Shown: piece by piece, positions 1-18,628 of the stretch
How the letters are laid out: every line of letters begins with the position of its first letter
Position numbering within the stretch: the stretch's first letter is position 1
IMG/VR virus record: IMGVR_UViG_3300032770_000024
Location: 1-60,367 of that record
Source of the DNA: a virus
Strand: one strand, 5' to 3'
DNA length: 60,367 nucleotides
Made by a program: the position numbers and the translations under genes
Notes under the pieces: generated by a model
Told to the model about the DNA's origin: nothing
The model's database searches: none
What the model saw: the letters and a program-made list of their open reading frames with translations, nothing else

Positions 1-75
1 CTTCGTACATCTGGCGCAGCAACCTCCCCTAGCGCGAGTGACATAATCCAAATCGGGCCTTGTATTGGGCATTAA
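1..75 (+). CDS. 3' end of a fibre gene (partial, cut by window edge)
   Basis: The window opens in frame within the last 24 codons of a gene whose full-length copy lies at 55766-56959. The residues from LRTSG to the C-terminal CIGH and the stop are the same as in that copy. The upstream part is outside the window. If the molecule is circular or permuted, joining base 56884 to base 1 would rebuild an intact 397-aa gene. Function is inferred only from the full-length copy, a secreted/fibre-like protein. Confidence 0.75.
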   Translation, partial: LRTSGAATSPSASDIIQIGPCIGH

Positions 76-78
76 ATA

Positions 79-114
79 GGCGGCACGCCTTCAATCGCAC
101 CGCAAGGAAATCAG
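79..114 (+). repeat. 36-bp repeat R1 carrying the RBS of the 117-aa gene
   Basis: A 36-base segment (GGCGGCACGCC...GGAAATCAG) lies directly before the ATG at 116 and includes its AAGGAA ribosome-binding site. The same segment with two changes occurs at 2829-2864 and unchanged at 56963-56998. It brackets the fibre/holin cassette at 116-2828 as a direct repeat and could serve as a homologous-recombination boundary. Confidence 0.8.
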
Positions 115-115
115 A

Positions 116-469
116 ATGGCAAATTATGCAAGTCCAACCTTCAACAATCTAACCTTATTGGGTTCATTTTCATACACGCCACAGGGGGCCGGTTTGGGCA
201 CAGATCACAGTGAAAATCCACCCGCGCCATTGACCGTTCTGGCCAGCGGCACAGTCTCTCATCCCGGCGCTCTTTATGTGATGAACCAGAGCGCTGCCAC
301 TATTCAGATTTGGCTTCAAGGCGCAACTGCACCTATCTTGCTCGATCCCGGCGCTGGTGCAGACCGTCAAGGTGGTGATTGGTCAGCGGTGATAAACATG
401 CCGTGGTTTGTCGGTACCTTTACGATCAACGGTGCTTCCGGCTCCCAGTTTTATGCCAACAGCAATTGA
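116..469 (+). CDS. Small fibre-region protein, 117 aa (left copy)
   Basis: Unknown function. The 117-aa protein is polar, has no signal peptide or membrane segment, and looks beta-rich (LYVMNQSAATIQIWLQG, FTINGASGSQFY). It is almost identical to the protein at 57000-57353; the first visible difference is Ala5 versus Pro5. In both places it sits between a secreted fibre-like gene and a variable fibre gene, so a fibre-base, chaperone or cap role is a reasonable inference. The ATG is preceded by AAGGAAATCAG. The bases from here to the start of the fibre gene are conserved between copies, with scattered mostly silent changes, so the two copies have been diverging and are not an exact assembly repeat. 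Confidence 0.85.
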   Translation: MANYASPTFNNLTLLGSFSYTPQGAGLGTDHSENPPAPLTVLASGTVSHPGALYVMNQSAATIQIWLQGATAPILLDPGAGADRQGGDWSAVINMPWFVGTFTINGASGSQFYANSN

Positions 470-477
470 GGCACATG

Positions 478-2505
478 ATGATTAGGAAATTCCTCCGCGC
501 ACTATCTGCCGCGCTTTTTCTCGCTGCGCCGATTTCCGCCAGTGCGGGCAATCCCCCTGTTTGGTCTGCCGCTGGCGTGTCTGGCGGGTTTGCGCCGCTG
601 AATGGGACTGCCGCCGGGACGCTGGGGTTTACGTCCGCCACGCCATACGCCTTCACTACGTCGCAAGCGCAGAGTTCCGCGACGCTGAACGAATTGGCGG
701 TTGCCAATTCTACCAATTTACAGGCCGGGCAAACGGTAGTCGGAACGGGTTTGCCGGCCGCCACTGTAATCTCCAGCATCGCGGGAAGCGGTGAAAACGT
801 CGAAAATGCGAACGGTTCATTTTTGGCGGGGCAACCGACAATCCCCCTGTCTAACACCGTCAAACTCGTTACGGGTATGCAGTGCACTGACGCGACCAAC
901 ACATCTGCGGTTCCGGCTGGGTCAATTATCACCAGCCTAAGCCCTGGCGTGAGCATTACGCTATCGAACAACCTGACGCAGAACAGCTCAGGTGCTTCGG
1001 ATTCGATCATATGCGACCCTGTGCTGACGCTCTCCAATAGCGCAACAAGCCCGCTGTCGGCTGGGGCTACTCTTTCCATTTACGATAACGCCACCATATC
1101 GTCTGGGAATATCGGCACCACCGGCACCATTTCTATCGGCGGGACAGTGGTGCTCGCAACCCCGTATCCGGGCGCACCGACGCAAGGCGGCCCGGTGCTC
1201 GTCGGGCCTGGAGCTGGGGCAGGCATAGGGCCAAATTCCGCCGGAACCACGTTTGTGGGCAATTCTGCGGGCGCGGCGGATAGCTCCGGCGTGGAAAATA
1301 CCGGCGTCGGCTGGCACTCTATGAACTTGCTGACCACCGGCAATTACAACACCGCTCTCGGCATCAACTCGATGGGCCATGATGTGCACGGCAGCAACAA
1401 CGTGGCGATTGGCGAGGACTCACAACGCAACACCACAAGCTCGACATGGAACGTCTCTATCGGCCCAAACGCCATGTATAGCGGGACCAGCACGGCAAGA
1501 AACATAGCGATTGGGCAGAACGCCCTTAACGGGCAAACATCTTCGGCAGAGGTGGATAATATCGCCGAAGGCTATTATTCTATGTCGTCCGGCTCCCTGA
1601 CGACCGCCTACCAAAACATCGGACTCGGTTCATACTCTTTCAACGCGCTTACGTCGGGCTACAACAATATCGGGATAGGCTATCAGGCGGAATACAGCCA
1701 GCTTACCGGGTACGACAATGTCGCTATCGGAACCGGCGCGGGATATGGCGGGACAAACACGGATTACGATATTTTTATCGGTCATAACGTCGGCCTGAAT
1801 ATAACAGGGAATGGCAACATAGCTCTGGGCGGCTACGCTATGAGCGGCGGCAGTGGAAGCGCGGGCGGAAATATCGCCATCGGATATAAAGCGGGGCAGT
1901 TCGTAGCCGGAAGCGCGGGGCTCAACAACGTTATGATTGGTTTCCAGGTAGGATATACCACGCTCCAAGGCGGCGGGAACAATATCCTCATCGGTACATC
2001 TGGATCGGTCGACGCCCAAACCTCATCACAGAACTACGGCGTTGACATCGGCAACGTCATCACAGGCTACCAGCAGGGCGCAACCAATCCGAACCTGTGT
2101 GTGATCGGAAGCCCTTGCATCCTCGGCGTGCGGCGTGGCGCGAACCTCAACAGTACGGCGGATCAAGCTATTACCGTTGCACCGCTGACCAGCGGTCAGG
2201 CCGGGTATATGCCCACGGCCAGCAAATACATCGTAACCGGCGTGTGGGTGGATAACTGTTCGGCGGCGTCTGGCACGGCGGCGGGCGGCATCTACACCGC
2301 CGCGAGCAAGGGCGGCACAACACTGGTGGCGGCAAGCCAGACTTATGGCAACTGCTCCAGCGCCACAACGATGCAGACTGCCACGCTGGCCGCCGCCGCA
2401 GCATCCAACACGCTCACGGCATCCACGCTGTACCTGTCCCTGACAACCGCGCAGGGAAGCGCCGATACGGGAGACGTGTATGTGTATGGCGTGCCGTTTA
2501 ACTGA
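478..2505 (+). CDS. Secreted/fibre protein with YadA-head-like GNNxAIG repeats (allele A)
   Basis: A 675-aa protein. Residues 1-24 form a signal peptide (MIRKFLRALSAALFL then ISASAG). The middle part, roughly residues 230-530, is a run of degenerate repeats of about 14-20 aa with cores such as NNVAIG, NNIGIG, GNIALG and NNILIG, the pattern of trimeric autotransporter (YadA/Hep_Hag) head repeats that build a left-handed beta-roll. The C-terminal third is a separate beta-rich domain with two cysteines. ATG 478 is preferred over 475 because GAGG at 468-471 is 6 nt away. It is the counterpart of the esterase-bearing fibre at 57362-59239: the first eight residues and upstream gene match, the body does not. 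The likely role is receptor binding. The signal peptide makes export of the protein before assembly an open question. Confidence 0.8.
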   Translation: MIRKFLRALSAALFLAAPISASAGNPPVWSAAGVSGGFAPLNGTAAGTLGFTSATPYAFTTSQAQSSATLNELAVANSTNLQAGQTVVGTGLPAATVISSIAGSGENVENANGSFLAGQPTIPLSNTVKLVTGMQCTDATNTSAVPAGSIITSLSPGVSITLSNNLTQNSSGASDSIICDPVLTLSNSATSPLSAGATLSIYDNATISSGNIGTTGTISIGGTVVLATPYPGAPTQGGPVLVGPGAGAGIGPNSAGTTFVGNSAGAADSSGVENTGVGWHSMNLLTTGNYNTALGINSMGHDVHGSNNVAIGEDSQRNTTSSTWNVSIGPNAMYSGTSTARNIAIGQNALNGQTSSAEVDNIAEGYYSMSSGSLTTAYQNIGLGSYSFNALTSGYNNIGIGYQAEYSQLTGYDNVAIGTGAGYGGTNTDYDIFIGHNVGLNITGNGNIALGGYAMSGGSGSAGGNIAIGYKAGQFVAGSAGLNNVMIGFQVGYTTLQGGGNNILIGTSGSVDAQTSSQNYGVDIGNVITGYQQGATNPNLCVIGSPCILGVRRGANLNSTADQAITVAPLTSGQAGYMPTASKYIVTGVWVDNCSAASGTAAGGIYTAASKGGTTLVAASQTYGNCSSATTMQTATLAAAAASNTLTASTLYLSLTTAQGSADTGDVYVYGVPFN

Positions 2506-2512
2506 CGCCGCC

Positions 2513-2593
2513 AACACCGTGACCGTGCGGGTATGTGCCATTGCAGCGGGAACACCTACCGCGTCCACGTATGATGTGTCGGTTAGTTACTGA
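2513..2593 (+). pseudogene. Vestigial C-terminus of the other fibre allele
   Basis: Immediately behind the stop of the fibre gene (2503-2505) an open frame reads 26 residues from NTVTVRVCAIAAG to the end, followed by TGA. This is the exact C-terminus of the SGNH fibre at 57362-59239 (its codons 59159-59239). No start codon or RBS serves it, so it is not translated as a fibre end here. It marks the right-hand crossover of a fibre-gene replacement. Confidence 0.85.
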
Positions 2594-2636
2594 TGCCCCT
2601 TGCTCAATTACAACCCAGTCATGTAGAAAAGACAGC

Positions 2637-2870
2637 ATGAACGCGACAACCGGAACCGTAGTCGGGACTTCTGGAGCCAGCACAATGCTGGCAACTGTGC
2701 TTGTCTGGTTGCTCTCGCTTCGTGGCATTACCATACCCGACGATGTTGCGCTTGCCATGACAGGGCTATTCACAATGGCCGCGCATTACCTTATCGGCGC
2801 CCATATCCGAAATACCGCCATTGGTGCAGGCGGTACGCCTTCAACCGCACCGCAAGGAAATCAGTCATGA
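2637..2870 (+). CDS. Holin-like membrane protein (intact copy), 77 aa
   Basis: A small protein with two predicted membrane helices, about residues 16-29 (TMLATVLVWLLSLRG) and 38-54 (ALAMTGLFTMAAHYLIG), and a polar C-terminus. Size, topology and position behind the fibre gene fit a phage holin; this is an inference from topology. The first 31 residues match the truncated copy at 59283-59393. Its stop overlaps the next start (ATGA at 2867). Its last codons run through the 36-bp repeat R2, so the repeat is coding here and 5'-UTR at the other two sites. Confidence 0.6.
   Translation: MNATTGTVVGTSGASTMLATVLVWLLSLRGITIPDDVALAMTGLFTMAAHYLIGAHIRNTAIGAGGTPSTAPQGNQS
2829..2864 (+). repeat. 36-bp repeat R2, right border of cassette A
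   Basis: This is the second copy of the 36-base segment seen at 79-114 and 56963-56998, with two T/C differences. It encodes the end of the holin-like protein and supplies the AAGGAA RBS for the gene starting at 2867. With R1 it flanks a 2.7-kb block holding the 117-aa gene, the fibre and the holin. Confidence 0.8.
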
Positions 2871-3166
2871 CCGTCGAAACCACCACGCAGACCATCGAAA
2901 CTATCGCCAATGCCGTTGTCGGGGCTGCCGCCGCTGCTGGCGTGCCGCACGCTGCCACCGCGCAGGCCGCTCTGTCCTCCGCTGAGACCGTCGCCAATGC
3001 CGTCGAGGCCGAGGCGCCGCATCACACCGCCGTGGCCGCCATCGGCGCTGGCGTGACTGCTCTGGCTAGCACTCCGATCGTGCAGACCAATACGCAGGCT
3101 GCTGCCGTTACAGGCATCGCTGCGTCGTTCTTCGCTTGGCTCAAGTCTGAGTTCGCCAAGCTCTAA
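2867..3166 (+). CDS. Small Ala-rich protein behind the holin, 99 aa
   Basis: Unknown function. It is Ala/Val/Thr-rich and probably helical, with a hydrophobic stretch near residues 76-92 and an end (FAWLKSEFAKL) that looks amphipathic. It resembles in composition and C-terminal layout the proteins at 24956-25231 (ends FLAALSKI) and 59460-59678 (ends IEAWLKAHF). All three follow a holin-like gene in this window. The start overlaps the holin stop (ATGA), which suggests translational coupling. A holin-associated role is possible but unproven. Confidence 0.65.
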   Translation: MTVETTTQTIETIANAVVGAAAAAGVPHAATAQAALSSAETVANAVEAEAPHHTAVAAIGAGVTALASTPIVQTNTQAAAVTGIAASFFAWLKSEFAKL

Positions 3167-3321
3167 TCCGGGTTGCGGTTCCCGGAGGGCTGAAAGGCCC
3201 GTGGCGGCGTTGCTGGCCGAAACGGATGATGGCTACAACGTGCTGGTTGGCAGCACGCCGTCTGCGGCTAGGGCTAATTAAGCGCCCCTTGCCGAATTAC
3301 ACACTATCCAGGTAGGATCAA

Positions 3322-3816
3322 ATGGCAACGCTTCCCTCTTCAGGTAGCCCTCCGCCGGGCACCCTCTACGGTTGGAATCCCAATAGCAGCACCTTTATTC
3401 CGCTGGCTATGGATGCCTACGGCAATCTCGGAGTTACCTTCAATTCAGGGGCTCCTGTTGGTACGCCGCCAGATGATATAGGCGCGAAGTTCGGTAATGC
3501 CCCGCCGGGCACCCTCTACGGCTGGAATTCTGCCCTTCAGTCCTATCTGCCGATTATCACCGACGCCTCGGGCAACCTGCTTTTCTCGGCGGCCATTAGC
3601 GACCTCTCGCAAGGTACAGTCATCCCGACAGGCCAAATGGCTGCGGTTACATTGGCCGCTGTCGCCTACGCGGCGCTTACCTCCAATCCGATCGACAACA
3701 CAGCCTTTAATATTCTAATGACCAACTGGTTCAACGCCCTTCCCACCAGCCCCACAGGTCAGGCAGTAGGCTCCTTCATTAATTCTGGCGGAACCCTGCA
3801 ACAAGTTCAACCGTAA
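3322..3816 (+). CDS. Virion-associated protein with two PPGTLYGWN repeats, 164 aa
   Basis: No family recognised. Two internal repeats of about 26 aa start near residues 11 and 61, each PPGTLYGWN followed by eight variable residues, P, four to six residues and DAxGNL. The rest is Ala/Thr-rich. It has a good RBS (AGGTAGG, 8 nt). It lies between the fibre/lysis block and the ejection-protein block, so a small tail or fibre accessory protein is plausible. The 155 bases before it (3167-3321) hold no supported gene. Confidence 0.7.
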   Translation: MATLPSSGSPPPGTLYGWNPNSSTFIPLAMDAYGNLGVTFNSGAPVGTPPDDIGAKFGNAPPGTLYGWNSALQSYLPIITDASGNLLFSAAISDLSQGTVIPTGQMAAVTLAAVAYAALTSNPIDNTAFNILMTNWFNALPTSPTGQAVGSFINSGGTLQQVQP

Positions 3817-3837
3817 ACTTCAGAAGGAAAGTGTGAA

Positions 3838-4071
3838 GTGGATAGACAGCAAGAACACGAATTTGGTCCCGAATTTTCTGGCGAGTTGAAAGAGGTGGTT
3901 AAAGAGGCGATACAAGAGTGGCTGGATAAGCAGTACGCTACGTTCGGGAAATGGTCTCTTGCTGGGCTCTTTTCTATGGCACTCGCGGGGCTTCTCTGGT
4001 TCTGGATTAGCACTCACGGATTTGACACAGCGACGGCTTCGCAGTACGTGGGGCCGCCGGCCAAGCCTTAA
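3838..4071 (+). CDS. Single-pass membrane protein, 77 aa, GTG start
   Basis: The start is GTG 3838 with AAGGAA upstream. Residues 1-40 are acidic and helical (EFSGELKEVVKEAIQEWLDK); a transmembrane segment follows near residues 41-59 (SLAGLFSMALAGLLWFWIS), then a short tail. This layout suggests a holin-cassette component or small spanin-like protein, but no lipobox or second spanin gene is visible. It is the last gene before the terminator at 4076. Confidence 0.65.
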   Translation: MDRQQEHEFGPEFSGELKEVVKEAIQEWLDKQYATFGKWSLAGLFSMALAGLLWFWISTHGFDTATASQYVGPPAKP

Positions 4072-4075
4072 GAGC

Positions 4076-4117
4076 GGGTGGAGCTACTTTAATCCTCGAA
4101 GTAGCTCCACCCTTTTT
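4076..4117 (+). terminator. Rho-independent terminator; member of the 13-9-13 hairpin family
   Basis: Arms GGGTGGAGCTACTT (4076-4089) and AAGTAGCTCCACCC (4099-4112) pair perfectly over 14 bp around a 9-nt loop, followed at once by TTTTT (4113-4117). It starts 5 bases behind the stop codon at 4071, so it closes the fibre/holin operon. The same arm sequence recurs at 17898-17932, 23933-23967 and 35022-35056, and in degraded form at 33151-33163 and 38798-38832. Confidence 0.9.
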
Positions 4118-4178
4118 CTCTGTCTTCCCTTCTGCCAGCAGCCTTGCGCTTCCTCTTCCCACATGCTAGGCATTTGGT

Positions 4179-4520
4179 ATGCCGCTCGCTTCTCTCTACG
4201 CTGTGGAATTCCCCACCCCAGAAGCCCTGGATAAGTGGGCCTTTAACCACGCGCAGCACCACTACGCCATCGTTCGGGCGCTGCAAGCTCAGGGCGGCTC
4301 GCCCCACCTCTACCAGCTCTATCCCATGAATACCGAAGACTTGATGGCCTGGAACCTCGATCACGCCACCATGCACCAAGAGATGGACGCAGTGGCGAGC
4401 GAGAATTCCAATAATATGCTCACCGTCAACTTTGGCGATCCCAGCGAACTTCGTCAGTTCCTCTACTACAACTACCAAGAGCACTTGGCTGTGGCCAAGT
4501 TCTTAAACCTTAACGCATAG
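4179..4520 (+). CDS. Unknown His-rich helical protein, 113 aa
   Basis: No family recognised. The protein is helical and rich in His and aromatic residues (FNHAQHHYAI, DHATMHQEMDA, YYNYQEHLAVAKF), with no membrane segment. It begins the ejection-protein block, 11 bases ahead of the next gene, so it is probably a small virion protein. The RBS is weak, so the exact start is uncertain. Confidence 0.7.
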   Translation: MPLASLYAVEFPTPEALDKWAFNHAQHHYAIVRALQAQGGSPHLYQLYPMNTEDLMAWNLDHATMHQEMDAVASENSNNMLTVNFGDPSELRQFLYYNYQEHLAVAKFLNLNA

Positions 4521-4530
4521 GACCCCACCA

Positions 4531-5136
4531 ATGGCCTCTGATCTTCCGCGCACTTCCTCCCCCAGTGCAAGCGCCGCAGCTCTTCTCGCCCCCCGCCGTC
4601 CAGCCCTGCCGCAGGTTCAGCAGATCAAGAAGGTTGATCTGGGTCCGCAGGACGTGGCTCCGGCGCAGCCTGATCCGCAACCGGCAATTCCTCACATGGT
4701 CCCCTGGATTGAGCAAGGGGAGAAGCAGGCAGTGTGGCGCCTTGGCGCTGCCGACACTGATGCGCTTCGCGCCAAAGCCTACCCGGCGCTCCAGGCCGTT
4801 TACCCCCACCTAGAGGATGGCGCTTTTGCGTACCTAATACTGTCCTCGCTGGGCCGCTCCGACAGCCGAGTACTTCGCGCGGAAAATGCCTTCGGCTACG
4901 CCTCTACACAGCAGACAGTCTACGATCCCCGACTGCAGGTGCAGGTACACTGGGTGGTGGGGCCGGCCGCTGAGGCGGCCCTTATCTATCAGGCTTTCGC
5001 TGAGTGGGCGCAAGAGATTCGAGCTGCCTCCCTGCAAGTGCTTCCCCTGCCAGGCACCAAGCTCAAGGACCAGATGGACCAGCTGGGCGCTTACAGCGTA
5101 GCTCCCATTTACTTCTTCGAGCTTCAAAATGGTTGA
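4531..5136 (+). CDS. GNAT-like virion-module protein, 201 aa
   Basis: A Pro/Ala-rich N-terminus of about 55 residues precedes a domain whose later part (ALIYQAFAEWAQEIRAASLQVLP, then an alternating C-terminal strand APIYFFELQ) resembles the second half of GNAT acetyltransferases. A similar protein follows directly (5129-5548, 8-bp overlap). Pairs of small GNAT-like proteins occur beside podovirus internal-virion genes. The acetyl-CoA loop (Q/RxxGxG/A) is not clearly present, so catalytic activity is doubtful. Confidence 0.55.
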   Translation: MASDLPRTSSPSASAAALLAPRRPALPQVQQIKKVDLGPQDVAPAQPDPQPAIPHMVPWIEQGEKQAVWRLGAADTDALRAKAYPALQAVYPHLEDGAFAYLILSSLGRSDSRVLRAENAFGYASTQQTVYDPRLQVQVHWVVGPAAEAALIYQAFAEWAQEIRAASLQVLPLPGTKLKDQMDQLGAYSVAPIYFFELQNG

Positions 5137-5548
5137 GCTTCGCCCGATGGTGGAGGCCGACTTGCCTGAAGCCATTGCCCTGGCTCAGACCAAGTACAAG
5201 AGGCAGCTTCCGCGCCTGACCTACGAGGGCGCTCGCGAGTTCTGCCTTCGCGCCTTCACTTCGCCTGAGTTCCTACTTATCCGGGGGGAAGATGTTTTTT
5301 ATTGCGCTGGCGCTACTCGCACTTTTATGGAGCCTGAAGTTACGGTTGGTTCTCTCTGGATTTTCTCCAAAAAGCCCAATACGCGGGAATTTCTGGGGGT
5401 TATTCGGGCGGCAGAGGATTGGGCGAAAGCTCTAGGCGCCGTAGAAGTCGGCTTTGGCAACATCTCTGACCGGGATTTCACACGGGTAGCGCGGCGGCTG
5501 GGCTACTACTCCAGTTCTCAGTATTTCACAAAGCGCTTGAGAGGGTAA
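5129..5548 (+). CDS. GNAT-family acetyltransferase-like protein, 139 aa
   Basis: The N-terminus VELRPMVEADLPEAIALAQ is the classic first strand and helix of GNAT domains. A central strand (TVGSLWIFSK), a helix (FLGVIRAAEDWAKALGA) and a last strand-helix unit (GFGNISDRDFTRVARRLGY) follow. The usual RGxGxG pantetheine loop is replaced by KPNTREFLG, so substrate binding may have changed. The family resembles internal/ejection-module proteins of T7-like phages. It overlaps the previous gene by 8 bp and is followed after one base by the next, indicating one operon. Confidence 0.6.
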   Translation: MVELRPMVEADLPEAIALAQTKYKRQLPRLTYEGAREFCLRAFTSPEFLLIRGEDVFYCAGATRTFMEPEVTVGSLWIFSKKPNTREFLGVIRAAEDWAKALGAVEVGFGNISDRDFTRVARRLGYYSSSQYFTKRLRG

Positions 5549-5549
5549 T

Positions 5550-6686
5550 ATGTCTCACGTTTTCGGCAAGGGCGGCGTCGGGGGCTTTCTTGGGCGCACC
5601 TTTTCAGCGAAGAACCTGGTTCCTGAGATCGCAACGATCGCCGGTGGAATTATAGGTGGGCCTATAGGAGCAGGTCTTGGTAATGTCGCTGGAAATCTTG
5701 TGGAAGGAAAGAGCCTTGGAAACGCGTTGAAAAGCGGTGCGATTTCCGGGGTGGAAGATGTTGCCCTTGGCGGCATTACCGGGGCAATAGGGAAGGCGGC
5801 AGGCGGCACCGGTACCGGAACCCTCATTGGCAATCTTGCCAACGATATAACTGGGGGCTCCTCAATCGTCGGCAACGCCATTAATACAGCGGGCGCGGAT
5901 CTCGGCATTGGCACAGCCGCCAGTGCAGCTGCTGGCGCTGGCACCGGGACCATTCTTGGTAACGCGATCAATAATATCGCTTCTACTGTGGGCCTCGGCG
6001 GAGTTACCGGCTCCGTTCTTGGAAATGCTGTTAATCAGGCAGGTGCGGCTGTTGGATTAGGTGGGGCTACTCCAGCGGCGGCAGCCGCACCCTCAACAGC
6101 ACAGCTGATCGCGCACACCGGCTCTGCCGCTGCAGATGCAGCCCTTGCTCCCGCTGCAGCCTCTGGCGGCGGGCTTGGCTCCCTTATCAGCGATGTAGGT
6201 GGTGACCTCGGTCTTTCTAAATCGGACATTCTTCCTGGAGCCCTACTCGGCTATACCATGCTTAAAGGGCAGCAGCAACTGCCAGGGCAATCCCAGATTA
6301 CTCAGGCGGCAGAGACTGCAGCACAGCAAGCGGCACAGCTTGAGGCCCCACTCACTTCCGGCGCCCCACTCCCTGGTGGCCTGTCCTCTGGCATCATGCA
6401 GGCCGCCGATGCGGCAAAAGCACAAATCCAGTCCAACTTCGCCAGTATGGGCCTTTCGGGCTCCACGCAGGAAGCGACCGCGCTGGCGCAGGTGGATCAG
6501 AACGCGCAAATTCAGACTGCGCAACTGGCGCAGCAGCTCTACACCGAGGGCGCGAACCAGGCCGGTGTCAGCACCGCGGACTACGCTACTACTATGCAGA
6601 CTGTAGCGCAGCAAGATGCCGCTTATCAGCAGGCACTGAACAACTTTGCGGCCGCACTGGGCGGCGGCACCACCAAGGCCGCATAG
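5550..6686 (+). CDS. Gly/Ala-rich ejection or internal virion protein candidate, 378 aa
   Basis: Residues 1-215 are dominated by Gly/Ala/Ile with repeated GxxxG-type segments (AGGIIGGPIGAGLGNVAGNL, repeated NxIxGNAI), a composition able to insert in membranes. Residues 235-378 are Gln/Ala-rich and probably coiled coil (AAETAAQQAAQLEAP, AQLAQQLYTEGANQAG). This layout and the placement before two long helical proteins match podovirus ejection proteins that form a transenvelope channel. The assignment is by composition and position only. Confidence 0.65.
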   Translation: MSHVFGKGGVGGFLGRTFSAKNLVPEIATIAGGIIGGPIGAGLGNVAGNLVEGKSLGNALKSGAISGVEDVALGGITGAIGKAAGGTGTGTLIGNLANDITGGSSIVGNAINTAGADLGIGTAASAAAGAGTGTILGNAINNIASTVGLGGVTGSVLGNAVNQAGAAVGLGGATPAAAAAPSTAQLIAHTGSAAADAALAPAAASGGGLGSLISDVGGDLGLSKSDILPGALLGYTMLKGQQQLPGQSQITQAAETAAQQAAQLEAPLTSGAPLPGGLSSGIMQAADAAKAQIQSNFASMGLSGSTQEATALAQVDQNAQIQTAQLAQQLYTEGANQAGVSTADYATTMQTVAQQDAAYQQALNNFAAALGGGTTKAA

Positions 6687-6695
6687 GAGGACTGG

Positions 6696-8543
6696 ATGGT
6701 TGGTTACACTTCTACGGCTCAAGTAGCACAAAGCGCGGCACCAAAGGCTCCGGCGGCTGCTCCGGCAGCACAAGCAGCGGGTACTGACCTCGACTCTCAG
6801 CTTTCGTCCCTCGAGTCCAGCGATCAGGCAGACCTTCAGACAATCGCCAAGGCGCAAGCGGCCATGCAGGCCTCCGCCCCTACCCTCACGCCCCCGCCTC
6901 AGCAGGCGCCCTCTAATCCGCTTCGCGCTTTCGGCAGCGCCGCTTCCCTCTTCGCCATCCTTGGCAGCTTAGTTTCCCGCGCCCCAGTGACCGCGGCACT
7001 TAATGCCAGCGCCAGCGCCATGAACGCGATCCACCAGAAGAACCTGGAAGATTACCAAATCCACTACAACAACTGGAAGCAAAGCACCGACTTCGCCCTC
7101 CAGCAGGCGCAGCTGCAGCAGCAGGCCTACCAGAATATCCTCGATAATGCGAAGCTGTCGCACAGTGAGAAGATGGACGCCATTAATGCGGCGGCTACCA
7201 TCCATCAGGATAAAGTCTCAGCTATGCACATGCGGAACTCCGACGCAATTGCCTTCCAGCAGTTGCAGATCGACCGCGCCAGCGCTGCAATGAACTTGCA
7301 GGTGCAGAAGGCCAATGTGCAGCGCACGCAATTTGATGAGTTTAACCAGAATCCTGCCCTTTTTACACTTCTCACACAGACGGGCGGTGGCTTCGATAAT
7401 CCGGCCTCTATTGTCAGTCAGGCGCAGGATGCCTATACTGGGGTGCAGAAGCTGAGTACGGCCAAAAGTCCGGTTTCCATCGACGGAACTTCTTACTCGC
7501 CGGAGGACTACAAGGCAGTAACGGCGCAAGGGGCCGATATTTCCAAGCTGACGCCAAAGCAGCAGCAGTTGGCAGCGCAAGTTTCAGCTGCTTCTGCCTA
7601 TGCCACATATCAGGCCTCACAGAACTCCGACTGGTCTTCCACTGTCGTCAATCCGGCGACCGGAATGAGCAATGCGGACGTTCATGCGCTGGCAATAAGC
7701 GACTGGCAAAGTGGGAATACCCGCCGAACCTTCCCAGACACTCAGCAAGGCAAGACAGCGGCCATGCTCTACAATAAAGCGCAGGCGCAGATTGAGGAAA
7801 CTCAGGGCGCTCCGGGGCAGTTGGACCCGAATACACTGAACTTTTACGTTCAAAGCTATATGGCTTCGGGTAAGCTGCCGCCGCTGCCGAAGGGGCCAAA
7901 GGGCTATGCGGAGAACAACCAAGTGATGCAAGCGGTGGCGAAGCAGGCCGCAGCTGAGAATATCACTCCAGGGGACATTATCTACAATGGGGTGAAGACG
8001 AAGGCCGTAACGGTGGGCCTGAGCCGCCTTACCACCACCTACTCTCAGCTCGATGCCGCCGATCAGACGGCTATGAGCAACATTCAATACGCGCTTTCTG
8101 TGCGTCCGCCAGATCTTGGCAATATTTCCCCGATCATGGTACAGGGGCAGTTGAAGCTAAACTACTTGGGCGGCGATAGGCAGACCCAGCAGTTCGTAAC
8201 CGCCCTTCAGACGGCGGTGGACGAGTACTCGAAGGTGGCTCAGGGCTCCTACGGGGCCGCCGGTACGACAGACTCAGCTAGAAACCTGGCGATGAGCATG
8301 ATTAACCCAGATATGACGGAAGATCAGCTGCAGGGAGCTGTGGAGGCAATGCAGAACGACATGCAGAATAAGAAGGCTGGGTATGCTATGGCGATCGGGT
8401 CGCTGGGCGGAGATCTGCCAGACCTTTCGGCGGGCTATGTGCCTGACTCTTCGCCAAATGCGGATGCTGGACCTTCTCAGCCTGTAGCTCCCTCCCCTGC
8501 TCCCGCACAGCCCTCGGCCCCTCAAACAAATCCCGCCTGGTAG
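6696..8543 (+). CDS. Internal virion / ejection protein candidate, 615 aa
   Basis: A long Ala/Gln-rich protein. A membrane-prone segment lies near residues 70-105 (ALRAFGSAASLFAILGSLVSRAP type), followed by a long helical region (DYQIHYNNWKQSTDFALQQAQLQQQAYQNIL) and a Pro/Ala/Ser-rich C-terminus. It has a clear RBS (AGGAGG, 5-6 nt before ATG 6696). It sits in the middle of the three-gene ejection block and is separated from its neighbours by fewer than 12 bases. No enzymatic motif seen. Confidence 0.65.
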   Translation: MVGYTSTAQVAQSAAPKAPAAAPAAQAAGTDLDSQLSSLESSDQADLQTIAKAQAAMQASAPTLTPPPQQAPSNPLRAFGSAASLFAILGSLVSRAPVTAALNASASAMNAIHQKNLEDYQIHYNNWKQSTDFALQQAQLQQQAYQNILDNAKLSHSEKMDAINAAATIHQDKVSAMHMRNSDAIAFQQLQIDRASAAMNLQVQKANVQRTQFDEFNQNPALFTLLTQTGGGFDNPASIVSQAQDAYTGVQKLSTAKSPVSIDGTSYSPEDYKAVTAQGADISKLTPKQQQLAAQVSAASAYATYQASQNSDWSSTVVNPATGMSNADVHALAISDWQSGNTRRTFPDTQQGKTAAMLYNKAQAQIEETQGAPGQLDPNTLNFYVQSYMASGKLPPLPKGPKGYAENNQVMQAVAKQAAAENITPGDIIYNGVKTKAVTVGLSRLTTTYSQLDAADQTAMSNIQYALSVRPPDLGNISPIMVQGQLKLNYLGGDRQTQQFVTALQTAVDEYSKVAQGSYGAAGTTDSARNLAMSMINPDMTEDQLQGAVEAMQNDMQNKKAGYAMAIGSLGGDLPDLSAGYVPDSSPNADAGPSQPVAPSPAPAQPSAPQTNPAW

Positions 8544-8550
8544 AAAAGCC

Positions 8551-10791
8551 ATGAGCATACAAGCCAAATCCTATGATGGAACCATCCACTCCTTCCCTGA
8601 CGGCACGCCGAGCAACGTCATTGATAATGCTATGCGGACGTACAAGGTGGAGAGTCAGTATGAGAAATCCACCTCCTTCATCCCAGGAGAGCCCGGCTTC
8701 TGGAATGGTGTAGCCTATGGCGGGCTGCAGACACTGGACAGGATTGCGGAAGCCGCCGCTCGCGGTGTGGGTGATGTGGCGCACGCCGCAGGGGCTCCCG
8801 CGTCCTTTACTCCGGGCGCGGATGTAGCAGCGATCACTGCTCCAGATGAGCAGCACATGCACGAAATCTGGGGTGGAAGCCCCGGCTTCAACGTAGGTGT
8901 AGGGGCCGGTGACGTGCTTGCGTCCCTTGCGCCCGCCGGGGATGTGGCTAAGGCGCAGCAAGTAGTGGGTGCTATCCCCGGCGCGGCGAAATTGGGCGGC
9001 GTCCTTTCGCAGGTGCCCTCCGATGTGGCCCGCTTTGCCAATTGGACCGCGCCTACCGTCCTTCCTGCCGCAGCAGCCAGCGCCGTCACTGCGAAGCAGC
9101 AAGGCTACGCACCCGCCATGCAAGCGGCGAAGCAGGGCGCTATCGCCGCTCCCCTTGCTGGAGCTGGCGCTGCTGGCGTATCGGCCCTGGCTCGACCTGT
9201 AGCCGCCGTTTCTCAGCATGTCATTGATATGTTCGCTCCGGGCTGGCAGAAAGCTATCAAGGACGTTAAGAATGACCTGAAGACCTATGGTATGTCGCCA
9301 AGTCAGGTGGATGCGGCGGTACAGGAACTTGGAAAGGACGCTGTTCCGGCGGATCTCGAGCGTCTTCAGTCGCGAGCAAAAGAGATTACCTCCAAGCCAG
9401 GCCTTGTATCGGAGAATGTGGTTAAATTCCTGCGTAGCAGGCAGGGCGCGGCCACGCAGCGCTCGATCCAGGCCGTGCAGGAGCTGACAGGGCAGAAGGG
9501 GCAGGTCTGGACGGAAGCGCAAGCGCTGAAAGCTGAGCGGAAAGCCCAGGCTTCACCCCAGTTCCAGGCTGCGATGCAGGGCGGGTCGCTGGCTCCGCTC
9601 AAGGAGCAGCTACAGAAGCAGAATTGGGCCGCAGGGAAAGCTGTAGCTGATCTGGACGAGCAGATTTCCCGCGCTAATTACCGGGTGACGCAGGCAGCGG
9701 CAAAGCTCACTGAGACTCGCGGAGACGTCTATGCGGAGTCGCAGGCCAGAAGAGAAGCGCAAGAAGCCAAGAACACGCAGATTTCTCTTCTCGACAAGAA
9801 GCGGCAAGCGGTGGCCCACCACAATGCTGTAAAGCAGGCGATGGTGGAAGCGCAGGCGGATGCTTCCTCCGGTAAGCGCGGAGCTATCTGGTCCCCCGCT
9901 ATTGATCAGTTCATGAGCCATCAGTGGACGAAGAAGGGGCTGGCCGAGGGCCTGAATCAAGAGAAGGCCCGCGCGATTGAAGAAGGCAGGACTTTCGACC
10001 CCACCGAATACGGCGTAACACAGGATAGGCAGGGAAATCCTGTGCTTGGCCCTGATGGGACGCCAGTAGTGGGTAAATTCCCTAACATGAATCTGCTCCA
10101 TGCAGCGAAGCAGGGCGTCGATAGCTTTATCAAAGCGAATACCAATATTGACGGAAGTCTGACCCCGAGCGGCGCTGCGGCCAAAGGGATGCTGAACAAG
10201 TTTCTAGAAGATGTGGATGCTCGGAACCCCGAGTACGGCAAGGCCAGGGCTACTTTCAAGTCTTACTCCAGTAAGCTGGAATGGCAGGACAAGGGCAAGG
10301 ATTTCCTGAAAACCGACCCTTCCCAGATACAGGCTATGCTGGCAAAGGCTTCGCCGGAGCAGAAAGCTGCCTATCTCAACGGCGTAGCTGGAAATCTGAT
10401 GGCGAAGATCAATGGTGTGCCCTCGGCCAACCTTGACGTAAAAACTATGCTGGATGTGCCGGGGGTTATGGAGCGGCTGGAGGCCGCGGTGGGCGATTCG
10501 GCCAAAATGTCCGCTTTCAAGAAGAAAGTGGAGGCCGAGGGCGCGTACCGCCAAACTGCGCAAGCTCTGGATACTGGCATTAAGCACCCAGAAGACGAGG
10601 ACGTGAACGTCCCCACCATGTTCAGGGCTGCGCAATTTGCCGACAAACCACTGCTGGCTATATCTAATGCGCTTCGAGCCATTCACTTGAAGCCGAATGA
10701 GGATAGAGCTAGGATGCTGCAGTATCTGCTGTTTCCGGGTGTGGGGGATATTGCCGCGCAAGGGTCCAAGATACCGCCGCTTAAGCAATAG
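8551..10791 (+). CDS. Large internal virion protein candidate, 746 aa
   Basis: It begins with the short motif SYDGTIHSFPDGTPSNVIDNAM, which is typical of the N-terminus of large phage virion proteins. A hydrophobic Ala-rich part follows (about residues 110-235), then a long coiled-coil-like region (residues 260-450, e.g. AQASPQFQAAM, YAESQARREAQEAKN) and a mixed C-terminal domain. No lytic transglycosylase motif is visible. As the largest and last gene of the block it corresponds in position to the big ejection protein of T7/N4-like phages. Confidence 0.65.
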   Translation: MSIQAKSYDGTIHSFPDGTPSNVIDNAMRTYKVESQYEKSTSFIPGEPGFWNGVAYGGLQTLDRIAEAAARGVGDVAHAAGAPASFTPGADVAAITAPDEQHMHEIWGGSPGFNVGVGAGDVLASLAPAGDVAKAQQVVGAIPGAAKLGGVLSQVPSDVARFANWTAPTVLPAAAASAVTAKQQGYAPAMQAAKQGAIAAPLAGAGAAGVSALARPVAAVSQHVIDMFAPGWQKAIKDVKNDLKTYGMSPSQVDAAVQELGKDAVPADLERLQSRAKEITSKPGLVSENVVKFLRSRQGAATQRSIQAVQELTGQKGQVWTEAQALKAERKAQASPQFQAAMQGGSLAPLKEQLQKQNWAAGKAVADLDEQISRANYRVTQAAAKLTETRGDVYAESQARREAQEAKNTQISLLDKKRQAVAHHNAVKQAMVEAQADASSGKRGAIWSPAIDQFMSHQWTKKGLAEGLNQEKARAIEEGRTFDPTEYGVTQDRQGNPVLGPDGTPVVGKFPNMNLLHAAKQGVDSFIKANTNIDGSLTPSGAAAKGMLNKFLEDVDARNPEYGKARATFKSYSSKLEWQDKGKDFLKTDPSQIQAMLAKASPEQKAAYLNGVAGNLMAKINGVPSANLDVKTMLDVPGVMERLEAAVGDSAKMSAFKKKVEAEGAYRQTAQALDTGIKHPEDEDVNVPTMFRAAQFADKPLLAISNALRAIHLKPNEDRARMLQYLLFPGVGDIAAQGSKIPPLKQ

Positions 10792-10924
10792 CGGGCAAAT
10801 CTAGCGGGGATTTTTGGCGCCGGGCGGGTTTTGCCGCAAGGCGGCTACCGTCATAGCCCCCGGGCCAAAAGCCCGTATAACCCCAAAATTTTAGCTCGTA
10901 CTCCACCTCCTGAAAGGACCCCAA

Positions 10925-11290
10925 ATGGCCATTAAGAACTTCAAAAAAGCCGGACGCGAGAAAACCGCCCTGGCCGCTTCCCTCGACAAGCTCGCAGCTT
11001 CCATCGTCAAAGATGTGGAAGAGCTGGACTTGGAAGTGAAACTCCTTGCTATGCGGACGCTGACCCAGTATTACTCAGCGACCACCAGAGCAGGAGATGG
11101 AGATGAACAAGGACTTGGGTTTGACGCGTTCCGGGACAAACTCGCGGCTGCAAGTAGTGGAGGAGGAAGTGCTGCCGGAGCCGCTGGAGGCCCCGAACTT
11201 CCCTCCGACGACCCCAAGATCGTCTCCCTCTTCGCACGAGGAGCTGATGATGCTACTGGCGAGGGCGAAAGAGGAGAGGACGAGGGCTGA
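10925..11290 (+). CDS. Unknown 121-aa protein, overlapped by the next gene in another frame
   Basis: Residues 1-65 are helical and charged (KTALAASLDKLAASIVKDVEELDLEVKLLAMRTLTQYYSATT); the rest is Gly/Ser/Asp-rich and probably disordered. It has a good RBS (GAAAGGA, 8 nt). The disordered half is read from the same bases as the N-terminus of the gene at 11103, which could explain its odd composition. The helical start is vaguely like small DNA-packaging or scaffold subunits, which I cannot support further. The leader at 10792-10924 contains a small CGGGC/GCCCG hairpin at 10860 but no clear terminator. Confidence 0.6.
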   Translation: MAIKNFKKAGREKTALAASLDKLAASIVKDVEELDLEVKLLAMRTLTQYYSATTRAGDGDEQGLGFDAFRDKLAAASSGGGSAAGAAGGPELPSDDPKIVSLFARGADDATGEGERGEDEG

Positions 11291-11552
11291 GGCGGCGCTG
11301 GAAGCCGCCGCGAAAGCAGAAGCCCGGACTGAGGCTTTAGCCTCAGTTGTAGGCATCGCCGGGACCATTCTTTCGCAGCGAGCAATCGCGCTCATGCAAG
11401 CGCTGATCTTGCCGCTTATCGCGGTGAGCGGAGGGCTGGACCTTTGGTCCCACATGCTTCGCAGCCCCACCACCCCCCAGCTAATTGCCGTAGCCCTGTA
11501 CGGCGCTCTTGTCCTTGCCCCGGTTCTTCTCTGGGCCAACCGCAGTAAATAA
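11103..11552 (+). CDS. Two-helix membrane protein, overlapping gene, 149 aa
   Basis: ATG 11103 follows AGGAG at 6 nt; an ATG at 11097 has no proper spacing. Residues 45-75 form a charged helix (EELMMLLARAKEERTRAEAALEAAAKAEA). Two membrane segments lie near residues 80-105 and 122-146 (IAVALYGALVLAPVLLWA). It is holin-like or an inner-membrane accessory by topology. About 188 bases are shared with the previous gene in a different frame, and the last 72 bases overlap the convergent gene ending at 11481. Confidence 0.6.
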   Translation: MNKDLGLTRSGTNSRLQVVEEEVLPEPLEAPNFPPTTPRSSPSSHEELMMLLARAKEERTRAEAALEAAAKAEARTEALASVVGIAGTILSQRAIALMQALILPLIAVSGGLDLWSHMLRSPTTPQLIAVALYGALVLAPVLLWANRSK

Positions 11553-12752
11553 CTTAGTAGTGCCCTTATAGGAAGCCCGAAGGAAGCCACTCGCTTCCAG
11601 TTCTTTAAGGGCACTACCAGCAATATGCGGCGGGAACTCTTCCAGCATCTTCCGCTTAAGCACGGACTCACTAACGGCACCACCAGCGGCCTTCGCCTCT
11701 TCCAGCACCCAAGCCTCGATATTCTTGATCGACTCGAAGGCGGGGCTTTCCGCTGAGAATTGAAGCGCGATATTTACCTGGGACTCAGCTTCTAGTAGCG
11801 CACCGAGCGCCTTCTTATAGTCTCGCATGGTGATGACCATGCGGTCAGGCTTTGACGCATCTGCCGCTGCATAGATCATGCAGAGCTTCAAGAAGTGCAG
11901 GATTCTTCGGCCCTGATACTCTTCCAGCCGGGGATTGTTGATCTTGGGAGGCATCCCAGCGTCAATCCAATTCTGAATCTCCCGTCGCACATTCGGCTCC
12001 ATCCGCATCTCCCCCTTCAAGCGGCAGATCTGCCCCAAGTCCTCCTTGAAGGAAGTAAGGTCTTCGACCGAGGCCGAAGAATACATGTCGGGCGGCTTTA
12101 CCTCGTCCGAGCAGATCAAATTAACCCGAGAAAGGAAGCCCATTCCTGAGCGGGCTTTTGTAAAGTTCTCGGCCAGTCCTCGGGGTGTTGTTCCGGCCAG
12201 GAAGCAGAGGAAGAGATTCTCGACTCGTGTCTCATCTCGCTTGAAGGTGTCGTAGGTCCAAATGCCGGGGCAGTCGTAGAGGTCTGTGAGGTCGTTGAGG
12301 AAGACTTGATCGTTCGGCTGGATAAAGGTGACGAGTTCAGTAACGAATGCTGCACAAGTGGTGGCAGATTGGCCCTCCACGAGGCGCGTAGCTTTTGAGA
12401 GTCGGTCAAGGAATTTCTCCTTCGTAGTTTTTGCGCCTGGGACAAAGATATTCGGGATAGATTTGACTAGCTCGTGGCAAGCGAGGACAGTCTGACTCTT
12501 GCCGCTGGCAGGAGGGCCGACTAGAAAGGCGTAGAGGTTGGGGTAGAGGCGGCGGCCCTGGAGGGAGAACCAGACTCGGCGCTGAAGCGCGGCGCCAATA
12601 GTGGCCGCCATTCCCCACTTGTTGAAAATGTCTGGCGAGTTACGGCTCTGCATTACCTCCACGAAGGAGTCGATCAAGTGTGGATGGTTCGCTTCGCGTA
12701 TCAGGCTTGCTGGGGTTGAACTTAATAAGCCCGTGAGGGTTTGTGAATTCAT
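11481..12752 (-). CDS. DUF3987-like primase/helicase-type AAA ATPase, 423 aa
   Basis: The motif GPPASGKSQT near residues 78-87 is a Walker A site. VFLNDLTDLYD is the likely Walker B and LCFLAGTTPRGL a sensor-like segment. The N-terminal FVEVMQSRNSPDIFNKWGMAATIGAAL matches the entry segment of DUF3987/YfjI-type ATPases, which often accompany primase or replicative genes. The C-terminal 80 residues resemble a winged helix (SESVLKRKMLEEFPPHIAGSALKELEASGFL). It follows and overlaps the polymerase by 113 bp, so it is probably the phage replication helicase. I saw no primase zinc finger or TOPRIM motif. Confidence 0.7.
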   Translation of the reverse strand: MNSQTLTGLLSSTPASLIREANHPHLIDSFVEVMQSRNSPDIFNKWGMAATIGAALQRRVWFSLQGRRLYPNLYAFLVGPPASGKSQTVLACHELVKSIPNIFVPGAKTTKEKFLDRLSKATRLVEGQSATTCAAFVTELVTFIQPNDQVFLNDLTDLYDCPGIWTYDTFKRDETRVENLFLCFLAGTTPRGLAENFTKARSGMGFLSRVNLICSDEVKPPDMYSSASVEDLTSFKEDLGQICRLKGEMRMEPNVRREIQNWIDAGMPPKINNPRLEEYQGRRILHFLKLCMIYAAADASKPDRMVITMRDYKKALGALLEAESQVNIALQFSAESPAFESIKNIEAWVLEEAKAAGGAVSESVLKRKMLEEFPPHIAGSALKELEASGFLRASYKGTTKLFTAVGPEKNRGKDKSAVQGYGN

Positions 12753-15066
12753 TATAGGAGTCCCAGTTAAAGCCTACTTCCGCATCGCACCCGACGACGC
12801 ACTCTCTGCCGTTGATCTCGATTGGCACCACGAGGTCATTCAGTATCTGCGGGATAAGCTCTTGCTCTTCGTCCGCCGGATACTGAAAGACAACCGCGTC
12901 ATGCACTTGAAGAAGGAACTCGACTTTCCTTCGGGAGTCGAAGATCCTGTCGTATTTCTGCCACACTCTGTAAAAGCCCAGGTTCAGCAAATCTCCAATG
13001 GTTGACTGCGGACCATACGCGATCGCAGACTTTATGGTATCGTTGTCCCAGTGTCTCCCTGGGAAATGACAGGTACGCCCGAAGGGAGTAGTGATGCGAC
13101 GGGTGGAAGCAAGCTGCTGCTTGATGTGATTGTGCCATTGCTTGATCTCTGGGAATTCTTCGTAATACCTGGCTGCAAAGGCTTCGGCTACGCCGATGGG
13201 GATTTTTAGATTGATGCTTAGCATCAGCGGAGTTACACCATAGTTGCTGTTTCCCGTGACAGAAATTTTTCCGTCCTTGCGAATGAAGAAAGCTCCGCTT
13301 TCAACTGTAGGGCAGTAAACTTGTTCATCTGCCTGTATCCAGCATTTTTGCTCCAAGTTGGCGATATTGGCGTATTGCCTGTTGTTCTGCTGCAAGCTGT
13401 AGCAAACTGTTCCATACTCACTGACTTGGCCTTTTTGGATGTTGCCACCGATGCCTACTAAGCGTCCAACGGTTTGTATCCACTCGAGGTGGCGCCGGTC
13501 AGCTGAGGCCACAGAAACGGCCGTTTTAGCGATGTACCCGTCCCAGTATTTGTGTTCATCTGTGTAGGCTTCTAGCGCCTCTCGAGTCCAAGTAAGAAGG
13601 TAAGGCCCAGCATACTTTGGAAATTTTGTTGTGTGCAGAAAGTACTTTTCTTGTTCCGGTTTTTCTTCGAGAAAGACGCCGCACTTCTCTGCGAGCATCC
13701 GGAGACGTTCCACCTTTCGATCTTTTCGCAGATGGAACTCTGTTCTATTTGTGGTTTTAATGTGACCATCCGCTTGAACAGCGGCTGCCATTCGAGCGAA
13801 CCACACAGATACAGAAATATTTCCGCCCACATAGTTATTTCCAAGTGGAATGAGTCCACTGTCTTGAAGTTCAGCCGCAGTTTTTACAAAAAGCTTTTCC
13901 TTAACTTTTGACTTGGGGTTAGCTGTGCGCTGCACATAGTAAACCCGGTGGTTAGGTGTCATGGTTATACTAAGAGCCCGACCCTCTAAGCGGAGCATCT
14001 TTCCTTTGTACTGGCTGCTATGCCAGTGCTGGACTGGAGCAAAATTGGAGCCTTGCTCAGACCATGTAAGAATCTCAGAGGGCATCTCGGAAATTTTAAC
14101 CCAACCGCCCCGAGTTAGAACCTCGTGATCACCTGTAACGCACGCATGGCCACCGCGCTTACCCATATCCCTGTACGAGTGCTGCCGGTAGAACTTGGTC
14201 CCGTCCGCGAGGGCCTTATCCTTCTTCGGATCTCCTGTCCACGGAAGTTCCTTGTTCCACACAGCGCGAGTGACATAGGTATGCACGTCTCCAGATTTGA
14301 CGGCGCGATAGTAGCGATCTCCCCAGGGAAGTGCAAGCATGGAAGTGATGACGCTTTCCGCTTGTTGCAGGTCCACATAGGCAAGTTTCATGCCTGGGTC
14401 GGGGATGAACATGCGGCGGAGCTTCTTGGTGATATTTTGCAAGTTCATCCCTCGACCGAAGACGTCGGAAGAAGAGGACCACCTGCCGGTTAGCGTACCA
14501 GCGACGTGGTAGCTGCAATACATGCGGCTATTCTCGATGTTCGTCTCAAGGACAGATTTCTTCTTATCTAAGTCGCGCAGCGCAAGGATTAGATCAGCGA
14601 AGGGCTTCGCCTTTCCTTCCTTCTGCAGCTTCTCTAGCGCTTCGCGCCCGGTTGTCACCACAGATTTTTTCGTATTTCTGTCATACTTGGTGGTGGGCTT
14701 CAGACCGAGAATTTGGAAGAAGAGCTTCTGCAGTTGAAGGGGCGAACGGTAGTTGATCTCGAGACCGAGGCCTTCGACCGTTAACCTCTTAAAGATTCGT
14801 TCAAACTTCTCCTTATCTGCCTGAATATCCTTCAGGGCCTCCTGGCGCTGGAAGTCGTCAATCCGCACCCCGCGGTTGGACAGAGTAAAAGAAGGCCCCT
14901 GCATGGCGCGGGACATGACGTAGGCGAAGGGTTCGCGGTTGTACTGGGCCTTGAGCTTGGAAAGAGCCTCGGAAGTGATGGCAGTGTCCAAGCCGTTGTA
15001 GGCCCAGAGCTGCTCCTGGGCGGAAAGGCGCTCGGGCTGGAGGGTTGCGGAGTCTAATACCCTCAT
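12640..15066 (-). CDS. Family A DNA polymerase (polymerase domain only) with an in-frame intein
   Basis: 808 residues before splicing, 510 after. Motif A is KLAYVDLQQAES (Asp232), motif B RDMGKRGGHA/SNYG is interrupted after residue 308, and motif C is LLQVHDAVVF. There is no 3'-5' exonuclease domain; it is encoded two genes upstream (15411-16553), so the polymerase is split into two polypeptides. After splicing, the O-helix Lys and Tyr of motif B become contiguous, so splicing is required for activity. ATG 15066 overlaps the stop of the upstream gene (ATGA). The C-terminal 37 codons are shared out of frame with the next gene. Confidence 0.9.
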   Translation of the reverse strand: MRVLDSATLQPERLSAQEQLWAYNGLDTAITSEALSKLKAQYNREPFAYVMSRAMQGPSFTLSNRGVRIDDFQRQEALKDIQADKEKFERIFKRLTVEGLGLEINYRSPLQLQKLFFQILGLKPTTKYDRNTKKSVVTTGREALEKLQKEGKAKPFADLILALRDLDKKKSVLETNIENSRMYCSYHVAGTLTGRWSSSSDVFGRGMNLQNITKKLRRMFIPDPGMKLAYVDLQQAESVITSMLALPWGDRYYRAVKSGDVHTYVTRAVWNKELPWTGDPKKDKALADGTKFYRQHSYRDMGKRGGHACVTGDHEVLTRGGWVKISEMPSEILTWSEQGSNFAPVQHWHSSQYKGKMLRLEGRALSITMTPNHRVYYVQRTANPKSKVKEKLFVKTAAELQDSGLIPLGNNYVGGNISVSVWFARMAAAVQADGHIKTTNRTEFHLRKDRKVERLRMLAEKCGVFLEEKPEQEKYFLHTTKFPKYAGPYLLTWTREALEAYTDEHKYWDGYIAKTAVSVASADRRHLEWIQTVGRLVGIGGNIQKGQVSEYGTVCYSLQQNNRQYANIANLEQKCWIQADEQVYCPTVESGAFFIRKDGKISVTGNSNYGVTPLMLSINLKIPIGVAEAFAARYYEEFPEIKQWHNHIKQQLASTRRITTPFGRTCHFPGRHWDNDTIKSAIAYGPQSTIGDLLNLGFYRVWQKYDRIFDSRRKVEFLLQVHDAVVFQYPADEEQELIPQILNDLVVPIEINGRECVVGCDAEVGFNWDSYNEFTNPHGLIKFNPSKPDTRSEPSTLDRLLRGGNAEP
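13249..14142 (-). other. Intein in DNA polymerase motif B (residues 309-606)
   Basis: A 298-aa intein. Cys1 is in CVTGDHEVLTRGGWV (block A), block B is SITMTPNHRVYYV with the conserved T and H, block F is EQVYCPTVES, and block G is ISVTGN followed by Ser as +1 residue. The penultimate residue is Gly instead of the usual His. The centre has a degenerate LAGLIDADG-type endonuclease: first motif near residues 425-435 (ARMAAAVQADGHI), second near 506-511 (KYWDGYI) without an acidic residue at the usual place. The insertion site in the polymerase O-helix codons is a conserved and therefore favoured homing target. By eye its bases are richer in A/T than the flanking exteins. Confidence 0.9.
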
Positions 15067-15410
15067 TTAATAACCGCCCCCTTCGCAATATAAAGGCTTC
15101 GTCTTTCCACTCGCTTACCGTGCATTTTTGCGTATATCTCTTCTTCCTTCATCCCCGCCGAAATGCCGTGGTCCACGTAAACTGCAACCAGTTCACATTT
15201 CACTATCATCTTCTTAGAAACCAGTATGCCTTCGGCCCGCTGCTCCTCATCCTCCTCGTAGAGGGCCCTAGTCCAGGCGAGCATTGCGTGAGAGGCCCAG
15301 GGGATTTCATCCCTCGCAAGGGAGTCGCGGATGCAGGCCCGAAGGTAGGCTTTGGCTTTATCCCCAGCGCCAAGGCCGGACCAGGGGGAGGCAATTACAG
15401 TTACAGTCAT
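15063..15410 (-). CDS. Nucleoside 2-deoxyribosyltransferase-like protein (DUF7768/DUF4406 type), 115 aa
   Basis: The sequence starts TVTVIASPWSGLG, matching the IASPYxG nucleotide-binding start of this fold. It continues with a YLRACIRDSLARDEIPWASHAML helix and ends with a VYVDHGISAGMKEEEIYAKMHGKRVERRSL segment, where the family has a conserved Gly-Ile-Ser-x-Gly-Met. Members of the wider family handle nucleosides or cut the glycosidic bond. The exact substrate is unknown. Placement between the polymerase and the uracil glycosylase/exonuclease suggests a nucleotide or base-handling role. Confidence 0.65.
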   Translation of the reverse strand: MTVTVIASPWSGLGAGDKAKAYLRACIRDSLARDEIPWASHAMLAWTRALYEEDEEQRAEGILVSKKMIVKCELVAVYVDHGISAGMKEEEIYAKMHGKRVERRSLYIAKGAVIK

Positions 15411-17113: not shown

Positions 17114-17116
17114 TTC

Positions 17117-18568: not shown

Positions 18569-18596
18569 TTGTTATTCTCCAGAAGAAGGGCTTGGC

Positions 18597-18628
18597 AAAA
18601 AGAGAAGGGGAGGACCGAAGCCCTCCCC
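18597..18628 (-). terminator. Rho-independent terminator behind the Gly-Tyr repeat gene
   Basis: Read on the minus strand, a GGGGAGGGC / GTCCTCCCC stem (18628-18607) with a UUCG-type loop is followed by TTCTCTTTTT (18606-18597). It lies between the stop at 18639 and the start of the ParB-methyltransferase at 18568, so it partly insulates the two. Confidence 0.75.

Follow-up and report, generated by a model that had tools for sequence, protein, structure and literature searches.

The two ends of this viral record pose a question of genome structure: why does a single contig carry two versions of one fibre/lysis cassette, one at either end? An earlier note on this DNA had offered two answers, either a real duplication within one genome, or two population alleles that an assembler had set at opposite ends of a genome with a circular or permuted map. 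The window analyzed here is one full IMG/VR record (60,367 bases, classed as 'linear'). We found strong support for population alleles and no positive support for a real duplication.

Near-identical borders enclose unrelated fibre bodies

We compared the window ends by blastn. Positions 1-498 aligned with 56885-57382 without gaps (482/498 identical), and only 3 of the 16 mismatches fell before position 367. The earlier note had given this match as 1-475 and 56885-57359; it is real, and the alignment extends to 498 and 57382. The block spans the end of the gene for a 397-aa protein (g397), the entire gene for a 117-aa protein (g117) and codons 1-7 of the following fibre gene. Beyond these codons the fibre bodies (499-2505 and 57383-59155) show no relation to each other, as had been noted before. 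Homology resumes on the 3' side, where 2510-2713 matches 59156-59359 (189/204) and extends to holin codon 31. The earlier note had placed this return at the fibre end and through the first 31 holin codons. The holin part stands, but in the left-hand version (allele A) the segment lies outside the fibre gene, which stops at 2505. A third homologous piece, absent from the earlier note, is a 37-bp direct repeat (35/37) at 78-114, 56962-56998 and 2828-2864. The E-values of the end homologies and of the repeat range from 0 to 1e-8, far past chance. Near-identical flanks enclosing unrelated bodies are the pattern of metaviromic islands and of receptor-binding gene exchange.

The contig begins at an exact 127-base overlap

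Counting identical runs, we found that positions 1-127 equal 56885-57011 exactly, and that all other identical runs between the ends are shorter, the longest being 122 bases (245-366) and 99 bases (2534-2632). Neighbouring edges of an assembly graph of the metaSPAdes type share k bases. Related large IMG/VR records were examined as a control for such overlaps. When the ends of 20-25 such records were compared, 6 had a self-overlap of exactly 127 bases (G009, G010, G016, G023, G025 and G028). In a further record, G024, the first 127 bases recur 55 bases before its end and then fall to 80% identity, a pattern like that of the window in miniature, with an overshoot of 55 bp versus 3.36 kb. The remaining overlaps were 123, 99, 69 and 43 bases, and several records had none. 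JGI runs metaSPAdes with k = 33, 55, 77, 99 and 127, the largest being 127 (PMC7171226). The overlap of the window start with internal sequence is thus exactly the largest k, a value that also occurred in 7 control records, and after the divergence no run shared by the two branches (122, 99) is as long as k.

The exact overlap and the control records indicate that base 1 is very probably the point where two branches, alleles A and B, leave a shared vertex of the assembly graph. The circular metaSPAdes contigs among the controls likewise start at an internal 127-mer, whereas in the window the alternative branch carries the contig 3.36 kb beyond this match. True terminal repeats were considered and rejected: exact identity is lost at base 128, and IMG/VR lists the record as linear.

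Gene order in relatives supports a circular or permuted map

Homologues of the right-end tail gene g1143 (49676-53107) precede homologues of the left-end genes g113, g201, g139, g378 or g615 on the same strand in 29 IMG/VR loci. Note that these loci are carriers of the capsid gene or its neighbours, and that some are near-duplicates of one another. In L088 (IMGVR_UViG_3300032954_000064) and L230 (IMGVR_UViG_3300033004_000003), the holin and g99 come after g397 sequence, matching a join of 56884 to 1. Right-end genes thus lie directly before left-end genes in relatives, which argues for a circular or permuted map. Moreover, the gene truncated at its 5' end by base 1 is present complete at 55766-56959, and the MCP relatives G009, G010 and G016 close as circles with the 127-base overlap. 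The join of 56884 to 1 on a circle of about 56.9 kb, proposed in the earlier note, is therefore backed by the overlap, the control records, the gene order of 29 relatives and the truncated 397-aa gene. It gives a strongly supported circular or circularly permuted map of 56,884 bp that carries allele A; allele B is an extra, alternative right arm of 3.36 kb, whose end at 60367 leads back to no 127-mer of the main genome.

Among annotated phages, the terminase and capsid come closest (about 40% identity) to those of MW202753 and MW202825, circular genomes of 34-36 kb from Manatee Spring with other fibres and no match to the cassette. The DNA of positions 1-20000 had no match among annotated phages, the g615 query found no relatives in viral contigs, and MCP and holin queries against bacterial genomes found nothing. 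Elsewhere on the map, a frame at 15411-16553 (- strand) carries a uracil-DNA-glycosylase domain, weakly matches a 3'-5' exonuclease and adjoins a family A DNA polymerase frame (12640-15066, - strand); PHROGs treats the two frames as parts of one polymerase family. A frame at 17117-18568 (- strand) fuses a DNA methylase domain to a ParB-like N-terminal domain, and 18647-18818 holds a degenerate short tandem repeat with copies about 85-92% alike.

A fibre relic suggests that allele A is derived

The genes and border elements of both alleles lie on the + strand. Allele A opens with the 3' end of the 397-aa fibre gene, of which the contig start leaves 25 codons (1-75; identical to 56885-56959), followed by g117 (116-469). 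The first residues of the g117 protein resemble the mature start of the L230 fibre (match over residues 2-19). Between A and B (57000-57353), g117 differs by 14 synonymous codons and 1 non-synonymous codon. The divergence between the alleles is mosaic, with 3 bases within the first 366 and 13 within the next 109, which suggests crossovers inside g117.

The fibre gene of allele A, fibA (478-2505), encodes 675 aa with a signal-peptide-like N-terminus and a body that resembles beta-repeat adhesins and tail spikes. It matches tail-spike and virion PHROGs (phrog_4636, 1.9e-16; phrog_6002, 9.4e-21) and aligns at about 30% to tail fibres from other phages. Past the fibA stop codon and in another frame lie 27 codons (2510-2593) that translate to ANTVTVRVCAIAAGTPTASTYDVSVSY and a stop. 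This is the end of the protein encoded by the fibre gene of allele B, fibB, with 4 synonymous and 0 non-synonymous differences. The segment is coding in B and a relic in A. Because this B-type C-terminus is retained after the fibA stop, allele A looks derived, and the simplest reading is that fibA recently took the place of a B-type fibre. The position of A's 3' homology past the fibre stop codon, as a relic, is new here. The relic is followed by the holin leader (2594-2636), an intact holin of 77 aa (2637-2870; phrog_9284, 6.3e-08; 91% to L088) and g99 (2867-3166), a small post-holin gene common to A, L088 and L230.

Allele B starts from the complete g397 (55766-56959; 94% amino acid identity to L088 over residues 38-397). 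After g117 comes fibB (57362-59239), encoding 625 aa with a signal-peptide-like N-terminus and a SASA-type domain (PF03629, 6.9e-08; 32.8 bits versus a curated cut-off of 24.8). The profile match, the serine block (GQSN, residues 53-56) and the WxQGE block (WDQGEFD, 188-194), with QEHYDG at 290-295, indicate that fibB is a putative SASA/SGNH carbohydrate esterase; it had no match in annotated phages. Queries with g117, fibA and fibB found no third contig with A or B and no relatives in a set of viral contigs from which close records may be missing. Structure predictions without alignment (mean pLDDT 34 and 39) were too poor for use. The holin leader of B (59240-59282) is followed by a holin stub of 36 aa (59283-59393), of which 31 codons are homologous and the rest unrelated. 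The genes beyond it (59460-60367), g72B, g90B (59657-59929) and g146B (59929 to the end, open), replace the post-holin genes of A and have no match elsewhere in the window or in relatives. Since the B holin keeps 31 homologous codons and then gives way to unrelated DNA with its own small genes, the lysis side has been exchanged too.

The slot before the holin has different occupants in other phages

The 37-bp repeat marks the left border of the inserted module. Its original copy lies within the 3' end of the A holin (2828-2864), and the copies in A (78-114) and B (56962-56998) are scars comprising the holin 3' end and the ribosome-binding region that follows. The scar in A also matches the L088 holin end (33/37). 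At the right border, comparison with L088 and L230 showed a common leader motif, GCCCCTTGCNNAATTACA, which occurs before the holin at 2595-2612 and 59241-59258 and again before g164 at 3284-3301; near-identical forms precede the holin in both relatives. Its spacing to TAGGAT suggests a promoter-like element.

In L088, the 397-aa gene is followed by 51 bp, an intact holin and g99, and g117 and the fibre are missing. The g397-holin-g99 block is 86-94% identical to that of the window, and the other genes of L088 largely differ. Despite this, short stretches of 26800-28069 are 90-98% identical in DNA to L088 11928-12887, which suggests that recent exchange has extended beyond the fibre region. In L230, the g397 body lies within a 525-aa gene, followed by a 799-aa fibre, holin and g99. 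The L230 fibre has a g117-like start after its signal (ANYASPTYNN), a middle that looks like a right-handed beta-helix and the g397 tip domain at its end. From the differing occupants and the shared borders across the window, L088 and L230, we infer that exchange takes place at the slot preceding the holin. At least four states of this slot are known: it encodes a beta-repeat adhesin in A, an esterase-bearing protein in B and a beta-helix-like fibre in L230, and it is empty in L088.

Two haplotypes are more probable than one duplicated genome

A true tandem duplication, with cassette B followed by cassette A in one genome and the shared left block collapsed by the assembler, would explain why both cassettes are on one contig. 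A repeat collapsed in one genome would also start the contig at the 127-mer, and the 37-bp direct repeats could mediate such an event. However, the contig is not seen running from B back into the repeat: its last 127 bases, and likewise its last 21, have no second occurrence within the window. In relatives the fibre region is single and compact, lying between the tail genes and g113, and in L088 and L230 one fibre slot leads into one holin/g99 block. In the window the B holin is a stub, and the B post-holin genes replace those of A. As this reading also needs both an unassembled gap and a collapse, we regard it as very unlikely. A chimeric join, in which the B arm comes from a different phage and is linked only through the shared fibre-region segment, draws on the presence of the g397-holin-g99 block in the otherwise different L088, which indicates that the block moves between phages. 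Yet A and B are 97% identical in DNA over 498 bases and also match in the 3' block, much closer than L088 (86%), and the left identity runs across two genes, making such a join highly improbable.

Two unrelated variable bodies within conserved borders could also reflect programmed variation in one phage through an invertible segment, a diversity-generating retroelement or a site-specific switch. Among the larger ORFs scanned (small ORFs were partly covered), there was no recombinase, invertase or reverse transcriptase. An inverted-repeat switch was rejected, as no long inverted repeats surround the body, and a retroelement was rejected, as the larger ORFs scanned contain no reverse transcriptase. 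Furthermore, the alleles are unrelated proteins and not point-diversified copies, and a silent second copy would be needed in the genome. The probability of programmed variation is close to negligible. Given the lack of such enzymes in the larger ORFs and of flanking inverted repeats, the exchange probably came about through ordinary recombination when phages co-infected a cell.

Thus, the window ends very probably represent two population alleles of one fibre/lysis cassette, on a circular genome that was opened by the assembler where they diverge, and not a duplication. The source population would have held at least two haplotypes of the cassette on a circular or permuted genome of ~56,884 bp. 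The assembler would have broken the circle at the final 127-mer that the two haplotypes share, with branch A becoming the left contig end and branch B the extra 3.36-kb right end. Recombination in short conserved borders would swap the protein encoded in the slot that separates the 397-aa fibre gene from the holin. The left border would consist of g117 together with fibre codons 1-7, and the right border of the 3' end of the fibre gene, the leader of the holin and its first codons.

Signal-like N-termini in fibre-region proteins

By a simple heuristic rule, not SignalP, five fibre-region proteins have signal-peptide-like N-termini: g349 (53909-54958, + strand), g206 (55156-55764, + strand), g397 (55766-56959), fibA (478-2505) and fibB (57362-59239). 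Such N-termini are unusual for virion proteins. The fibre-type protein g349 shares with g397 a C-terminal tip domain (54605-54955 and 56600-56956; 43% alike). This domain occurs in 97 stretches of contigs from uncultured viruses; a comparison with about 50,000 annotated phage records gave no match. By the same rule, 38 of 58 distinct IMG/VR proteins with this tip domain have a signal-like N-terminus, versus 29 of 780 ORFs (3.7%) in capsid-relative loci. A limited literature search found no paper describing this pattern in fibre-region proteins. Phage-encoded targets of diversity-generating retroelements are reported to lack signal peptides (PMC6199706). One tentative and rather doubtful possibility is that the exchanged proteins carry Sec-type signal peptides and are exported, to attach to virions at lysis or to act on the cell surface; they might then form a large class in uncultured phages, with the pre-holin slot as an exchange site for exported surface-active proteins.

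Relation to known recognition islands and implications

Variation in recognition islands is already known, and the window is an unusually well resolved case. In marine phages, metaviromic islands distinguish near-identical phages by a block of tail-fibre and other recognition genes (Mizuno et al. 2014, PMC3909814). The likeness to our case lies in near-identical phages with a differing recognition block; in contrast, an assembly branch has brought both alleles into a single record here, and the block takes in the holin as well as the lysis-region genes that follow. In cryoconite phages, tail-fibre/GDSL-lipase variants co-occur in one metagenome, recombination has been invoked, and the variable island is where contigs break (PMC7468147). 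The window belongs to a different phage group, its variants are unrelated proteins and not diverged homologues, and the relic gives a direction.

In conclusion, what looks like a strange duplication is very probably a circular phage genome, represented once in full, with an alternative allele added. An exact 127-base match of a contig start inside the same contig is a simple fingerprint for hidden second alleles in public viral contigs. The exchange itself is resolved to its borders, to a relic that gives its direction and to four occupants of one slot across phages. The earlier note had taken either arrangement to mean strong selection for receptor switching; this goes too far, as two alleles demonstrate exchange and not selection, and host-surface recognition by the swapped proteins is itself read from sequence, through the tail-spike-like and SASA esterase matches; the signal-like N-termini are unusual for virion proteins. 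The likely role of the swapped proteins would be surface attachment or modification, and their exchange would shift which host variants are recognised.
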